Virus record (IMG/VR): IMGVR_UViG_3300025655_004161
Location: 1 to 40,182 of that record
Reading direction: 5' to 3' (one strand)
From: a virus
Length of the DNA: 40,182 nt
Made by a program: the position numbers and the translations under genes. Shown piece by piece: positions 3,861 through 22,322 of this stretch (positions within the stretch are counted from its first letter, which is position 1; every line of letters starts with the position of its first letter). Below the pieces are notes generated by a model that ran no database searches, had not been told where the DNA came from, and saw nothing but the letters and a program-made list of their open reading frames with translations.

Positions 3861-4207
3861 TTCGAAATAATTCCTCCAGTATTCTTTCTTACAATATCTT
3901 CTGAGATTGATTCAGCGTAATAGATTTCTAGTACCTCAGCGTCTTCTACACATTCAAACCAATGATATTCACCCGGCTTCACTGTAGTGAAATTTCCTGG
4001 TCCTAGTTCTGTCTTATCTGTATGATCATAATCATTCTTACGTACAAAAATATTCATTTTACCGCTAATACAATAGAATCCGTTCCACTTGTGCTTATGT
4101 AAATGTTCTGAACATTTATAACCAGACTTTGTAATGATTCTGTGGACTTCAATCATGGGAGTCACTAAAAGAGGTTCTGTCTGACCCCAAACTTTACCAT
4201 AAATCAT
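3857..4207 (-). CDS. Small single-domain cupin
   Basis: The 116-aa beta-barrel protein carries the two cupin motifs: HLHKHKWNGFYCISG (about residues 36-50), with metal-ligand histidines, and GPGNFTTVKPGEYHWFE (about 70-86). Cupins of this size act as sugar epimerases, isomerases or mannose-6-phosphate isomerase-like enzymes. Substrate cannot be read from the sequence. It is coupled by ATGA overlaps to kdsA upstream and gene 33 downstream. The kdsA neighbour suggests a role in Kdo or another surface sugar pathway (inference). Confidence 0.8.
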   Translation of the reverse strand: MIYGKVWGQTEPLLVTPMIEVHRIITKSGYKCSEHLHKHKWNGFYCISGKMNIFVRKNDYDHTDKTELGPGNFTTVKPGEYHWFECVEDAEVLEIYYAESISEDIVRKNTGGIISK

Positions 4208-4998
4208 TTTTTAACCACTCCATCAATTTCTAAAATTTGTTCTATTATTTTTGGAAAATCTTTTAATTTAATCATATTAGGACCATCACTCGGTGCATTA
4301 TCAGGATCTGGATGGACTTCCATAAAGAGTCCTGCTATTGATACAGCGGTAGCCGCATAAGCAATAACAGAAGCAAAACGTCTATCACCCCCACTTGAAC
4401 CTCCCTGACCTCCTGGATATTGTACGGCATGTGTGCAATCCATAATGACAGGTGCATATTCTTTCATCACTTCTAATGAACGCATATCAACAACGAGATT
4501 GTTATATCCAAATGTTGTACCTCGTTCAGTTAACATTACTTCATTATAACCAAAGGATTTTATCTTGTCAACTATATTTTTTGTTTCCCATGGAGATAAA
4601 AATTGTCCTTTTTTTACATTCACAGGTTTACCAGTTTCGGCAGCTGATTTTAGAAGATCAGTTTGCCTACAGAGAAATGCTGGTATTTGAAGAATGTCTG
4701 CATTAGTTACGGAACATTGCCAAGATTCATGTACATCTGTTAATGTAGGTATACCTCTATTTCTTATTGAATCAAATGCATAATACGCACCATCAAAGTC
4801 TCCTCTGTATGAAGAGGATGATGTTCTATTTGCTTTATCAAAACTCATTTTAAAACAAAAGTTGACAGATAAATCGTCACAAATCTCTTTTAGAGTCTCT
4901 GCGATTTCCACTGCCAACTCTTGATTTTCAAAAACGCACGGTCCAGCAATAATCGATAGTTTCTTATCGTTAGCGAGACTATTATAAAAATTATTCAT
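4204..4998 (-). CDS. kdsA: 3-deoxy-D-manno-octulosonate 8-phosphate synthase (KdsA)
   Basis: KdsA condenses phosphoenolpyruvate with arabinose 5-phosphate to give Kdo-8-phosphate, the first committed step to the lipopolysaccharide core sugar Kdo. The 264-aa protein has the TIM-barrel family signatures IAGPCV (17-22), KMSFDKANRTS (about 49-59), LTDVHE (about 86-91), LTERGTTFGYNNLVVD (about 156-171) and a C-terminal FMEVHPDPDNAPSDG. Length is near the usual 270-285 aa, with no missing motif. It sits between a SleB-like hydrolase and a cupin inside a gp33-gp59-gp32 operon. A host-derived auxiliary gene acting on the cell surface is the simplest reading. Confidence 0.95.
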   Translation of the reverse strand: MNNFYNSLANDKKLSIIAGPCVFENQELAVEIAETLKEICDDLSVNFCFKMSFDKANRTSSSSYRGDFDGAYYAFDSIRNRGIPTLTDVHESWQCSVTNADILQIPAFLCRQTDLLKSAAETGKPVNVKKGQFLSPWETKNIVDKIKSFGYNEVMLTERGTTFGYNNLVVDMRSLEVMKEYAPVIMDCTHAVQYPGGQGGSSGGDRRFASVIAYAATAVSIAGLFMEVHPDPDNAPSDGPNMIKLKDFPKIIEQILEIDGVVKK

Positions 4999-5509
4999 AA
5001 AAAATATGCTTTCCTATTCTAATTAATACCTTTTTATTTTTGCTCCATTCGGGTACGACATAATCCGCATGATAAAATCTAGAACCTCTTGTGAAGTCTT
5101 CTACGTTAAAGTGTAGTAATGTATCTGCTATACTAATAGCTTTATACCAACTTTGTAAATCTTTTGGTGTATCTGATTTATTGTCACAATACCAAGAAAA
5201 TTGACACTTATATTTTACTATTTTGTTGTTTATCTTTACTGCCTGATATACAACGTCGCAGATGTTATTAGGGAAATCTTTGTCTTTTACACGATTTAGA
5301 GTTACGAGACCAATAGCATATTGACCAATAATTTCTTCTCCTCTAGCTTCAAAGTATATGTTTTTAGCTAAACAGTTCAGACTATCTTTATCTACTTCGT
5401 GACTGTCTGCATTATCCGGCAATGTTGCCATAGATACAAAAATAAGAATTAAGTAGACAAAACAAAAAATGATAAACTTTGCGATTCCCTTTTCGGAGAA
5501 TTTAAACAA
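4991..5509 (-). CDS. Cell wall hydrolase, SleB/Hydrolase_2 family, candidate endolysin
   Basis: The 172-aa protein has one N-terminal hydrophobic helix (about 10-28, IAKFIIFCFVYLILIFVSM) that could be a signal-anchor. The Hydrolase_2 domain follows: CLAKNIYFEARGE (about 46-58) with the catalytic Glu, AIGLVTLNRV, ICDVVYQ and CQFSWYCD, ending with SRFYHADYV. This family cleaves peptidoglycan as a transglycosylase/amidase and is a common endolysin in marine phages. The helix suggests a membrane-anchored or signal-arrest-release form. It overlaps kdsA by 8 bases and lies just downstream of the tmRNA. Confidence 0.88.
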   Translation of the reverse strand: MFKFSEKGIAKFIIFCFVYLILIFVSMATLPDNADSHEVDKDSLNCLAKNIYFEARGEEIIGQYAIGLVTLNRVKDKDFPNNICDVVYQAVKINNKIVKYKCQFSWYCDNKSDTPKDLQSWYKAISIADTLLHFNVEDFTRGSRFYHADYVVPEWSKNKKVLIRIGKHIFYE

Positions 5510-5535
5510 TGTTATATCCTTTAATTGTTAAAAGT

Positions 5536-5857
5536 GATTGGGCCCGTTATATGACAGGGTGGAACCCATACCCCGTGACTACAAGTCGATTAAGCCGCTA
5601 GGCGGATATCCTCGAAGTGGTTGTCATTTGCAACATTAAAGTTAGCATTTATAGTTTTGGTCCGATACGCTGGTACCATGGCGTCTACCTCGATTTGATC
5701 TTTACTACGTTAGTCGACCCTATTTCACCCCCCGCATAAGCATACCACAACAAACTCTTTCGTATCTAGCAAGGTCTCATTACTAGAGACGGTGATATGC
5801 TTATGGTGGAGGTGACGGGTACTGCCCCCGTGTCCTAACCGTCTATTCTATCTCCTC
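5536..5857 (-). ncRNA. ssrA: Circularly permuted two-piece tmRNA (ssrA)
   Basis: On the minus strand the 3' acceptor part comes first and the 5' part second. The acceptor piece has T-arm ACGGG-GGCAGTA-CCCGT (5815-5831) and ends CACCTCCACCA (5814-5804). The coding piece starts near 5732 with GGGGGTG, then the D-loop-like GGGTCGAC. The two make a 7-bp acceptor stem including G3-U70, the alanyl-tRNA synthetase identity pair, with CCA encoded. CTAACGT (5713-5707) pairs with ACGGTTAG (5842-5835, one bulge) as P2. The tag frame (5631-5590) reads ANDNHFEDIRLAA then TAA. A 10-bp inverted repeat (5796-5805/5735-5744) closes the spacer, which should be excised. The 5' and 3' ends are approximate. Confidence 0.93.
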
Positions 5858-6007
5858 TCAAACAGTAGATTTAATATTTATATTATCCATATCTAGACTC
5901 TTGACATAATCATACTCGTCTGCCAGTCGATCCAGATATTCTTCGTATTCCTTACGAATCTCAGGAAACCGAAACGCATCTTCGTACAACTCAACAAGTT
6001 CAAACAT
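5858..6007 (-). CDS. Small hypothetical protein, 49 aa
   Basis: The acidic 49-aa product contains ELVELYEDAFRFPEIRKEYE and a second Tyr/Asp-rich helix. No family is recognised. I choose ATG 6007 because GGGAG lies 8 bases before it. The gene follows a consensus promoter (6038-6066) and its stop directly abuts the tmRNA acceptor piece, so the two may share a transcript. Confidence 0.6.
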   Translation of the reverse strand: MFELVELYEDAFRFPEIRKEYEEYLDRLADEYDYVKSLDMDNINIKSTV

Positions 6008-10980: not shown

Positions 10981-11073
10981 TTAAGAGAACACTACCATGT
11001 ACATTAGAATAACTGCCATCAAAAAAGAGAAAGCAATAAACTCGACCAACATCTTCAGAACATTCAACATCAT
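10981..11073 (-). CDS. Small membrane protein, 30 aa
   Basis: GAAGGAGAGAG directly precedes ATGATG at 11073. The product is nearly one hydrophobic helix: a short MMLNVLKMLVEF followed by IAFSFLMAVILMYMVVF. A single-pass membrane peptide is the obvious reading. A promoter-like element lies just upstream. The stop is 10 bases before tRNA-Asn. Phage peptides of this type can act in lysis timing or host membrane interference, but function is unknown. Confidence 0.65.
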   Translation of the reverse strand: MMLNVLKMLVEFIAFSFLMAVILMYMVVFS

Positions 11074-11134: not shown

Positions 11135-11422
11135 TGTAAAAACAATTGTGGTTTATCTTTGGATGCCTACACGGACCGCCATGGCAATCCTATCGGATAT
11201 ATCTAACCTCAGAACCTATCTCACTGCTGACAACTACACCACAAGGTCGTTCGCTGTCTGACAAATGGCCAAGGATTACGGTTAAACACTACTCCCGTTC
11301 CTTACTTAGGTTCTAACTGGCTTCGTTAAGGGTGAAGCACATCGCAGTCAGAACAACCATCTGTTTCGTCCCTACGGACTCATCAGAGACAGTAAACTTC
11401 AACCTCCTCCTTCGTTCATCAT
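11135..11422 (-). ncRNA. Structured non-coding transcript with a hammerhead ribozyme
   Basis: This 350-base gap holds no convincing gene. It starts at the expected transcription start of the promoter at 11429-11457. About 30 bases on is the ribozyme (11254-11392). The 3' part has its own fold: TTGTGG (about 11245) can pair with CCACAA (about 11146), and inside it GGATTGC-CATG-GCGGTCC (11190-11173) makes a hairpin. A T-rich run follows at about 11135-11142 and could end transcription. Boundaries are estimates. Confidence 0.65.
11254..11392 (-). ncRNA. Hammerhead ribozyme, type I topology, branched insert in stem III
   Basis: All core elements are present on the minus strand. CUGAUGA is at 11386-11380. 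Stem II is GUCC-GUAG-GGAC (11379-11368), then GAAA (11367-11364). Stem III pairs ACAGATGG (11364-11357) with CCATTTGT (11268-11261, one G-U). The cleavage triplet is GUC with C17 at 11260. Stem I pairs AGACAG (11259-11254) with CUGUCU (11392-11387). Predicted cleavage is between 11260 and 11259. The 88-base stem III insert folds into helices 11345-11354/11310-11319, 11334-11338/11320-11324 and 11299-11303/11271-11275. No core base is missing, so activity is expected but unproven. Confidence 0.9.
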
Positions 11423-11428
11423 GTTTAT

Positions 11429-11457
11429 ATAATACCAGGAATTTTATTTTTTGTCAA
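11429..11457 (-). promoter_or_regulatory. Sigma-70-like promoter of the ribozyme transcript
   Basis: TTGACA (11457-11452), 17-base spacer, TATTAT (11434-11429). More than 35 bases around it are nearly identical to the promoter at 22651-22678, differing by one T in the spacer. Transcription should start near 11422. Confidence 0.8.
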
Positions 11458-11463
11458 TCAAAA

Positions 11464-19482: not shown

Positions 19483-19962
19483 TCATTCATTACCAGTCAC
19501 CACAGCGTCACCAGTCACCATAGCGTTACCAGACACCACAGCGTCACCAGACACCACAGCGTAACCAGACACCCAAGCGTCACCAGACACCTTAGCGTCA
19601 CCAGACACCCAAGCGTCACCAGACACCCTAACGTTACCAGTCACCACAGCGCGACCAGACACCTTAGCGTCACCAGACACCCAAGCGTCACCAGTCACCA
19701 TAGCGTTATCAGACACCCTAACGTAACCAGACACCACAGCATTATCAGACACCCTAGCGTTACCAGTCACCACAGCGTAACGAGTCACCATAGCGTAACC
19801 AGTCACCCTAGCGTAATCAGACACCCTAGCGTAATCAGACACCCTAGCGTTAGGCCCAACATAGGCGGACTCAGAAACAGTGGCGGTATCAGCGACCCAC
19901 CCACCACCATTAGGATGCTGGTGGGCGGAGACCGGACCGTTGCCAAAATCAAAAGTAGTCAT
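19483..19962 (-). CDS. Left-handed beta-helix (hexapeptide-repeat) protein, copy A
   Basis: AAGGAGTGAATGAC before ATG 19962 sets the start. The shared head MTTFDFGNGP...GGGWVADTATVSESAYVG is followed by about 20 hexapeptides of type V-[ST]-[GD]-x-A-x, such as VSGNAR and VTGYAM, the rule for a left-handed parallel beta-helix. There is no transferase active-site loop, signal peptide or extra domain. It is the last of five tandem paralogues. Such helices can form trimeric enzymes, scaffolds or fibres; function is unknown. Confidence 0.8.
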   Translation of the reverse strand: MTTFDFGNGPVSAHQHPNGGGWVADTATVSESAYVGPNARVSDYARVSDYARVTGYAMVTRYAVVTGNARVSDNAVVSGYVRVSDNAMVTGDAWVSGDAKVSGRAVVTGNVRVSGDAWVSGDAKVSGDAWVSGYAVVSGDAVVSGNAMVTGDAVVTGNE

Positions 19963-19975
19963 GTCATTCACTCCT

Positions 19976-20545
19976 TCATTCATTACCAGTCACCACAGCG
20001 CGACCAGACACCACAGCATTATCAGACACCACAGCGTCACCAGACACCACAGCGTCACCAGTCACCACAGCGTAACCAGACACCCAAGCGTCACCAGACA
20101 CCACAGCGCGACCAGACACCACAGCGCGACCAGACACCACAGCGCCACCAGACACCCAAGCGTCACCAGACACCCTAGCGTAACCAGACATCTTAGCGTA
20201 ACCAGACACCCTAGCGTAACCAGACACCCTAGCGTTATCATACACCCAAGCGTTACCATACACCACAGCGTTACCATACACCCAAGCGTTACCATACACC
20301 ACAGCGTAACCAGACACCCTAGCGTCACAAGTCACCTCAGCGTTATCATACATCCTAGCGTTACCAGTCACCCGAGCGTTATCAAACACCTTAGCGTTAC
20401 CAGACACCACAGCGTCATCAGACACCCAAGCGTTAGGCCCAACATAGGCGGTCTCAGAAACAGTGGCGGTATCCGCAACCCATCCACCACCATTAGAATG
20501 CTGGTGAGCAGGAACTGGACCAGTACCAAAATCAAAAGTAGTCAT
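19976..20545 (-). CDS. Left-handed beta-helix (hexapeptide-repeat) protein, copy B
   Basis: The start is ATG 20545 after GAAGGAGTGAATGAC. The product has the same head (MTTFDFGTGPVPAHQHSN) as copy A and about 25 hexapeptides, including runs such as VSGRAVVSGRAV and VYGNAWVYGNAV from recently duplicated 18-bp units. The end VSGRAVVTGNE nearly matches that of copy A, pointing to gene conversion between neighbours. Confidence 0.8.
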   Translation of the reverse strand: MTTFDFGTGPVPAHQHSNGGGWVADTATVSETAYVGPNAWVSDDAVVSGNAKVFDNARVTGNARMYDNAEVTCDARVSGYAVVYGNAWVYGNAVVYGNAWVYDNARVSGYARVSGYAKMSGYARVSGDAWVSGGAVVSGRAVVSGRAVVSGDAWVSGYAVVTGDAVVSGDAVVSDNAVVSGRAVVTGNE

Positions 20546-20586
20546 GTCATTCACTCCTTCATCCATTACCTAGCGTTACCAGACAC

Positions 20587-21243
20587 CTACGTGTTCGCCG
20601 AGTAACGGGTCCCAGACACCACAGCGCGACCAGACACCACAACGCGACCAGACACCACAGCATTATCAGACACCTCAGCGTAACCAGTCACCACAGCGTC
20701 ACCAGACACCACAGCGTTACCAGCCACCACAGCATTATCAGACACCCTAGCGTCACCAGTCACCACAGCGCGACCAGTCACCACAGTGTAACCAGACACC
20801 ATAGCGTTACCAGACACCACAGCGTCACCAGACACCCAAGCGTCACCAGACACCTTAGCGTAACCAGTCACCACAACGCGACCAGTCACCATAGCGTCAC
20901 CAAACACCTCAGCGTCACCAGACACCACAGCGTAACCAGTCACCATAGCGTTATCAGATACCCTAGCGTAACCAGACACCCTAACGTTACCATACACCAC
21001 AGCGCGACCAGACACCCTAGCGTCACAAGTCACCTCAGCGTTATCAGACACCCTAGCGTTACCAGACACCCTAGCGTTACCAGACACCACAGCGTTACCA
21101 GACACCACAGCGGCATCAGACACCCAAGCGTTAGGCCCAACATAGGCGCTCTCAGAAACAGTGGCGGTATCAGCGACCCACCCACCACCATTAGAATGCT
21201 GGTAGGCGGAGACCGGACCGTTGCCAAAATCAAAAGTAGTCAT
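20587..21243 (-). CDS. Left-handed beta-helix (hexapeptide-repeat) protein, copy C
   Basis: ATG 21243 is preceded by GGAGTGAATGAA. It is the longest copy (218 aa), with the common head and about 30 hexapeptides. The last residues (SGTRYSANT) depart from the repeat, and the 40 bases after the stop still contain repeat-like sequence, suggesting an unequal-crossover junction. Confidence 0.8.
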   Translation of the reverse strand: MTTFDFGNGPVSAYQHSNGGGWVADTATVSESAYVGPNAWVSDAAVVSGNAVVSGNARVSGNARVSDNAEVTCDARVSGRAVVYGNVRVSGYARVSDNAMVTGYAVVSGDAEVFGDAMVTGRVVVTGYAKVSGDAWVSGDAVVSGNAMVSGYTVVTGRAVVTGDARVSDNAVVAGNAVVSGDAVVTGYAEVSDNAVVSGRVVVSGRAVVSGTRYSANT

Positions 21244-21248
21244 TTCAT

Positions 21249-21773
21249 TCACTCCACAATAGCGTAATCATACAACATCGCGCGACCAGACACCCGAGCG
21301 TTACCAGACACCATAGCGTGACCAGACACCACAGCGCGACCAGACACCTCAGCGTTACCATACACCTCAGCGTAACCAGTCACCACAGCGTAACCAGACA
21401 CCACAGCGTTATTATACACCCTAGCGTTACCATACACCCTAGCGTCACAAGTCACCTCAGCGTTATCATACACCCTAGCGTTACCAGTCACCCGAGCGTT
21501 ATCAAACACCTTAGCGTTACCAGACACCTCAGCGTAATCAGACACCCTAGCGTTACCATACACCACAGCGCGACCAGACACCACAGCGCGACCAGACACC
21601 TCAGCGTTACCATACACCACAACGTTACCAGTCACCACAGCGTTATCAAACACCATAGCTTCGGGCCCAACATAGGCGCTCTCAGAAACAGTGGCGGTAT
21701 CAGCGACCCATCCACCACCATTAGAATGCTGGTGGGCGGGGACCAGGCCGTTGCCAAAATCAAAAGTAGTCAT
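21249..21773 (-). CDS. Left-handed beta-helix (hexapeptide-repeat) protein, copy D
   Basis: The start is ATG 21773 after GAAGGAGTGAATGAC. The product has the common head (MTTFDFGNGLVPAHQHSN) and about 23 hexapeptides; the block around VFDNARVTGNARVYDNAEV is shared with copy B. It ends MLYDYAIVE, and the stop overlaps the leader of copy C. Confidence 0.8.
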   Translation of the reverse strand: MTTFDFGNGLVPAHQHSNGGGWVADTATVSESAYVGPEAMVFDNAVVTGNVVVYGNAEVSGRAVVSGRAVVYGNARVSDYAEVSGNAKVFDNARVTGNARVYDNAEVTCDARVYGNARVYNNAVVSGYAVVTGYAEVYGNAEVSGRAVVSGHAMVSGNARVSGRAMLYDYAIVE

Positions 21774-21793
21774 GTCATTCACTCCTTCATCCA

Positions 21794-22294
21794 TTACCAA
21801 GCGTTACCAAACACCTTAGCGTAACCAGACACCTCAGTGTTACCGGACACCTCAGCGTTACCGGACACCCAAGCATCATCAGACACCATAGCGTCACCAG
21901 ACACCCTAGCGTAACCAGTCACCATAGCGTAATCAGACACCCTAGCGTAATCAGACACCACAGCGCGACCAGACACCCTAGCGTAACCAGACACCCTAGC
22001 GTAACCAGTCACCATAACGTAATCAGACACCTTAGCGTGACCAGTCACCACAGCGTCACCAGACACCACAGCGTTACCAGCCACCCTAGCGTCACCAGAC
22101 ACCACAGCGTTACCAGACACCATAGCGTCACCAAACACCTCAGCATCACCAGACACCCTAGCGTTATCAGACACCCTAGCGTTAGACCCAACATAGGCGG
22201 TCTCAGAAACAGTGGCGGTATCAGCGACCCACCCACCACCATTAGAATGCTGGTGAGCGGGGACCAGGCCGTTGCCAAAATCAAAAGTAGTCAT
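21794..22294 (-). CDS. Left-handed beta-helix (hexapeptide-repeat) protein, copy E
   Basis: This is the promoter-proximal copy: ATG 22294 after GAAGGAGTGAATGAA, about 30 bases downstream of the TATAAT box. The product has the common head, with AYVGSNAR in place of AYVGPNA, and about 21 hexapeptides. It ends KVFGNAW. A sigma-70-like promoter rather than a late promoter suggests early expression, which argues against a purely virion role. Confidence 0.8.
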   Translation of the reverse strand: MTTFDFGNGLVPAHQHSNGGGWVADTATVSETAYVGSNARVSDNARVSGDAEVFGDAMVSGNAVVSGDARVAGNAVVSGDAVVTGHAKVSDYVMVTGYARVSGYARVSGRAVVSDYARVSDYAMVTGYARVSGDAMVSDDAWVSGNAEVSGNTEVSGYAKVFGNAW

Positions 22295-22322
22295 TTCATT
22301 CACTCCTTCATCAACTATAGTT

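Follow-up and report, generated by a model that had tools for sequence, protein, structure and literature searches.

A phage hammerhead ribozyme with a covarying RNA module in stem III is predicted to set the 5' end of a conserved non-coding RNA

Hammerhead ribozymes are common in phages, and their purpose there is largely unknown. The window analysed here, the whole 40,182-base stretch of an IMG/VR virus record, contains a hammerhead whose stem III is opened by a long insert that itself folds. This raises two questions: what the ribozyme would do for the phage, and whether the insert is an RNA element in its own right. From sequence analysis, we give a probability of roughly 75% to the reading in which the ribozyme would cut between positions 11260 and 11259 and so set the 5' end of a downstream non-coding RNA (ncRNA), with the module in stem III carried along.

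A complete type I hammerhead near a predicted transcript start

A sigma-70-like promoter on the minus strand (TTGACA-17-TATTAT, 11429–11457, 11 of 12 matches) would place the transcript start near 11422, with stem I following after about 30 nt. This bears out an earlier note on this DNA, which had described a strong promoter about 30 bases before the hammerhead. At the corresponding place, the relatives L002 and L009 have TTTACA-17-TAGTAT.

Read along the minus strand, the ribozyme begins with the 5' strand of stem I (CUGUCU, 11387–11392) and continues through the core sequence CUGAUGA (11380–11386), stem II with its loop GUAG (GUCC-GUAG-GGAC, 11368–11379) and the core sequence GAAA (11364–11367, with A15.1 at 11364). 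The 5' strand of stem III, ACAGAUGG (11357–11364), runs into helix P1 of the embedded element, an arrangement seen in the fold and in covariation, and pairs with the 3' strand CCAUUUGU (11261–11268, with U16.1 at 11261). The two strands form 8 bp including A15.1-U16.1, with U-G wobbles beyond, and lie 88 nt apart. The last base of the GUC triplet is at 11260, so the predicted cut falls after C17 (11260) and before A1.1 (11259), and the 3' strand of stem I (AGACAG, 11254–11259) would become the 5' end of the product. Direct reading and a descriptor search find the type I consensus in full (C3-U4-G5-A6-N7-G8-A9, G12-A13-A14, A15.1-U16.1 and H17). In unconstrained folds of the window and L002, helices I, II and III surround the core and the ends lie in stem I.

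Folded without constraints, 11400–11240 (minus strand) adopts the hammerhead, including the branched stem III, as its minimum-energy structure, at −50.5 kcal/mol (z = −3.0; 1 of 200 shuffles equally good). A descriptor permitting a long stem III, the search that the earlier note had proposed, recovered this site and no other in the window, compared with 2 matches when the whole window was shuffled 400 times with dinucleotides preserved. The core elements, stems and GUC site described in that note were thus all found on the minus strand where it had placed them, and the unconstrained fold agrees.

The Rfam score is below the curated cut-off, a detection threshold and no biochemical criterion: the best model, Hammerhead_3 (type III), gave 31.3 bits against 48.5. 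This reflects the model, because the short-stem relative L013 also falls short (Hammerhead_1, 27.6 against 34). Fast natural hammerheads typically use a tertiary contact between stems I and II, or a pseudoknot. Stem I in the window is a bare 6-bp helix, and by eye we recognised no contact between stems I and II.

The ribozyme belongs to a family of phage hammerheads

Relatives were found by pattern scans of IMG/VR. A scan with the stem II core returned at least 119 stretches. Nearly all of these fold into hammerheads, split about evenly between type I and type III. Stem I, stem II and the core of the window recur in more than 20 other phage contigs, forming a type I subset with an identical CUGAUGA in all listed members and stem I CUGUCU/AGACAG (CUGCCU in L116). 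On this comparison the hammerhead is real, its homologues settling its identity, and the type I topology holds. Loss of the core in related phages, which the earlier note had named as evidence against a ribozyme, was not seen: every core position is preserved in over 25 related contigs, partly by construction, as the scan pattern demanded part of the core. The triplet is GUC in most relatives and GUA, a permitted NUH cleavage site, in L002 and L003. A blastn search of cultured phages returned only short, weak matches to the window RNA and none to the RNAs of the relatives.

Stem III of the subset is usually a short hairpin, CCCC-GAAA-GGGG, with loops of 2–6 nt. Four contigs (L009, L011, L013 and L014) share both the ribozyme and the downstream domain with the window and have an ordinary stem III, ACCCC-GAAA-GGGGU. 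The exceptions are the window and L001, whose RNAs are near identical, and L002 and L003, which have diverged versions of the same RNA. In a different hammerhead subfamily, L106 (2068–2217) has a possible stem III insert of about 72 nt, where its relatives L108 and L086 have CCAC-GAAA-GUGG.

In nine contigs (L042, L053, L062, L070, L077, L107, L110, L116 and L136), the ribozyme precedes an open reading frame (ORF) that, read by eye, is HTH-like. The predicted product of these 5'UTR hammerheads would open with a hairpin, AGACAG-CAAGA-CUGUC, resembling the 5' hairpin of the engineered insulator RiboJ.

A conserved ncRNA directly follows the predicted cut

Elsewhere the ribozyme precedes a conserved, pseudoknotted ncRNA of about 113 nt, in the window the predicted cleavage product (11147–11259, minus strand). 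This ncRNA is conserved in the window, in L001 and at 16 further loci (L002, L003, L009, L011, L013, L014, L041, L050, L057, L076, L082, L091, L102, L139, L148 and L149). Across ten distinct sequences, 98% of alignment cells are paired and 11 pairs change on both sides, compared with 0–3 in slid controls. Covariation extends to a long-range helix UGUGGU/ACCACA (11243–11238 with 11152–11147), P5 (11213–11207 with 11162–11156) and the P4 hairpin (11190–11173); the pseudoknot ACCU/AGGU (11247–11244 with 11217–11214) is nearly invariant and therefore gives no covariation signal. A covariance model, R2, built without L057 and L076, scored 112.9 bits in the window and 33.9 bits in these held-out loci (E = 5.5e-5). 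Rfam held no match to the ncRNA. A U-rich stretch behind it (11138–11146) probably marks its 3' end, and U-runs also occur there in L009, L013 and L057.

That the hammerhead could set the 5' end of a downstream RNA, as the earlier note had suggested, is thus supported at the level of sequence by a conserved ncRNA lying directly 3' of it. In the window this RNA has its own promoter-like site. In L139, L057 and L149, the ribozyme and ncRNA come directly behind a tRNA within long tRNA arrays; a role in processing the ncRNA 5' end would therefore fit both contexts.

Two further ideas about the ncRNA were rejected. An HDV-like or theta ribozyme would have the double pseudoknot P1-P2-P3-P4 with a catalytic C in J4/2; the helix order is similar, but the conserved C before ACCACA is absent and Rfam gave no HDV match. 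Re-pairing of AGACAG within the ncRNA, considered as a product helix that would drive irreversibility, did not exceed shuffles.

The stem III insert is a distinct RNA module

In the window, L001, L002 and L003, the short stem III is replaced by a three-way junction of about 100 nt, in the window at 11262–11363 (minus strand) and closed by helix P1. The element is supported by covariation, by a covariance model (R1) and by free-standing copies in two other phages, L026 and L029. There no hammerhead accompanies the module, which lies in the interval between two genes, shortly before a ribosome-binding site (RBS) and ORF. Its alignment comprises four distinct sequences, all that are known; 95.5% of cells are paired and 11 pairs change on both sides, compared with 0–1 in slid controls. 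P2 (11354–11345 with 11319–11310) and P2b (11338–11334 with 11324–11320) are also supported by covariation, whereas P3 (AAGGA-ACGG with CCGU-AA-UCCUU, 11303–11295 with 11281–11271) is drawn from folding alone, because it never varies. Across embedded and free-standing copies, P1 and P2 diverge through compensatory changes, whereas the P3 stem and the junction are almost constant.

By these comparisons, the 88-base gap with its self-folding insert, as described in the earlier note, is occupied by a distinct covarying RNA module and not by decoration of a loop. The module is separable, probably folds independently, and is probably a cis-acting or protein- or ligand-binding element of phage 5'UTRs. 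R1 found no further copies in about 1.2 Mb of phage DNA, and none of 10 pattern matches in 85,000 bacterial species genomes folds like the module. Rfam contains no family and no known ligand class for it.

A relationship to T4 RNA D, suggested by a common CURAGUAAGGAA whose match we first estimated to be very unlikely by chance, was rejected. The likeness is coincidental, because that part of RNA D varies among T-even homologues; R1 scored rnaD at just 7.9 bits, and the conserved sequence on either side of the variable hairpin of RNA D was not found in the module. A pseudoknot between loop L2 (CUUA) and the junction (UAAG) was also rejected, as it breaks down in L026.

The module is gained or lost between nearly identical phages

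L002 and L014 come from one phage species and are 99.87% identical over the 9,105 bp downstream and 100% identical over the 126 nt upstream, where identity stops at the invariant core sequence GAAAC. Stem III (the module in L002, a hairpin in L014) and about ten substitutions set them apart. Similarly, the intergenic site that contains the module in L029 has 14 nt of other sequence in L162, a relative of L029. The module is polymorphic in both settings, and was therefore gained or lost recently. The stem III/P1 sequence is the same in the window and L002, so the module was probably fused into stem III once and then spread; it would have moved between phages by recombination, with the near-invariant ribozyme sequence on either side serving as homology.

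We propose a short phage transcript with the hammerhead at its 5' end. RNA polymerase would first transcribe the 5' half of the ribozyme, next the module and finally the 3' half. Helix P1 of the module would zip stem III closed, and the completed ribozyme would cut, releasing the ncRNA with a defined 5'-OH AGACAG end. The remaining 5' fragment of about 160 nt, comprising leader, ribozyme and module, would end in a 2',3'-cyclic phosphate. The module is compatible with cleavage and probably not required for it.

The module could instead be a neutral passenger, placed in stem III by recombination and without function there, any RNA that closes the helix being tolerated. The presence or absence of the module between nearly identical phages would fit this, as would stem III itself, which varies more than any other part of phage type I hammerheads (loops of 2 to 80 nt) and in L106 would provide a second long insert. 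We nevertheless consider it unlikely, though deserving of weight, since two observations point to selection on the module: a compensatory change of U-A to C-G in P2b between the embedded copies in the window and L002, and a P3 stem that is invariant although the P3 loops have diverged between phages.

The same P2b change, by which the fold is maintained inside the ribozyme, would also be expected of a natural aptazyme, in which a metabolite, ion or protein binds to the module as its receptor and so gates cleavage and hence release of the ncRNA. Strong conservation of P3 and the junction beside drifting, compensated P1 and P2 is aptamer-like; four distinct sequences show the conservation and covariation expected of a receptor domain; free-standing copies lie just upstream of ribosome-binding sites; and P1 runs on into stem III, an arrangement found in engineered aptazymes. 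Against gating, the 8 pairs of stem III and its wobbles are continuous with the core, so that the ribozyme should fold with or without binding to the module, close relatives (one 99.87% identical) do without the module, and no Rfam ligand class matches. We judge the aptazyme reading improbable; if it were true, a phage hammerhead would have captured a mobile receptor-like domain by which a ligand or protein gates ncRNA release.

That the hammerhead is a degenerate or inactive relic, leaving an unprocessed ncRNA with a structured leader, is very improbable: the bare stem I with no recognisable tertiary contacts and the sub-threshold scores of the window and L013 would suit it, but the core has stayed intact (in part a product of the scan) while flanks, stem III and downstream context changed, and the GUA of L002 and L003 is still cleavable in principle. 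Processing of the ncRNA 5' end by an active ribozyme that carries the module along remains our preferred reading.

Comparison with known systems

Phage hammerheads are already known (Perreault et al. 2011, PMC3088659). The window ribozyme resembles type I hammerheads (Rfam RF00163; PMC3088659) in its complete core, three stems, open stem I and GUC site; it differs in its bare 6-bp stem I, the separable, covarying stem III RNA of about 100 nt, the linkage to a new ncRNA and a score under the Rfam cut-off. In the discontinuous mouse hammerhead, which we take to be the rodent CLEC2 3'UTR ribozyme, the halves are likewise split by a long insertion, whereas the phage insert is compact, forms a covarying three-way junction and is found on its own in other phages. 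A role in control has been suggested for the very large loop of the mouse ribozyme (PMC3088659). Theta (HDV-like) ribozymes, which adjoin phage tRNAs and have a processing role, are similar as self-cleaving RNAs next to phage tRNA genes (PMC10879173), but belong to another class and trim tRNA trailers, whereas the window hammerhead would define where an ncRNA begins.

The T4 tRNA cluster includes two stable RNAs, RNA C and RNA D, which are also small phage RNAs next to tRNA genes, but no homology was found. The earlier note had suggested that a hammerhead of this form in a T4-like tRNA region may be new. To our knowledge, and within the literature we searched, a separable covarying module that alternates with a plain stem III hairpin in otherwise near-identical phages is new. 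The swap is a natural experiment on whether a fused RNA domain alters ribozyme behaviour, an effect that we know so far only from engineered aptazymes. The context also offers testable roles: members of one ribozyme family stand before a conserved ncRNA in tRNA clusters in some phages and before an HTH-like gene in others. The analysis indicates two RNA families absent from Rfam 15, the stem III module and the ncRNA, and a hammerhead subfamily whose two individually scored members lie under the Rfam cut-off.

Genomic setting of the window

PHROGs matches to a T4-type SSB, PhoH and primase, together with six tRNAs and a permuted tmRNA, identify a T4-like phage fragment, as expected from the earlier description of a T4-like region beside a tRNA cluster. 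The permuted, two-piece tmRNA (5499–5911, minus strand) scored 116.6 bits with Rfam tmRNA_permuted and 107.1 bits with alpha_tmRNA, and has the tag ANFNVANDNHFEDIRLAA.

The leader before the ribozyme is one copy of a cassette of promoter and RBS (TTGACA..TATTATATAAACATGATGAAYGAAGGAG) repeated on the minus strand at 11460–11400, 22678–22629 (96% identity across 50 nt), 11108–11052 and 6044–6016. A small ORF starting with TTG at the leader RBS and crossing the ribozyme was rejected, as the RBS is missing from the relatives' leaders. Between the ncRNA and tRNA-Asn, a short ORF (10981–11067, minus strand) with its own copy of the cassette encodes a hydrophobic peptide of about 30 amino acids. Also on the minus strand, four adjacent paralogous ORFs with VSGDA-type repeats lie at 19483–22303, the first matching the YdcK beta-solenoid repeat, and this T4-like phage further encodes a DAHP/KDO8P-synthase-family enzyme (4204–4998) and a PstS-like binding protein (1007–1966).
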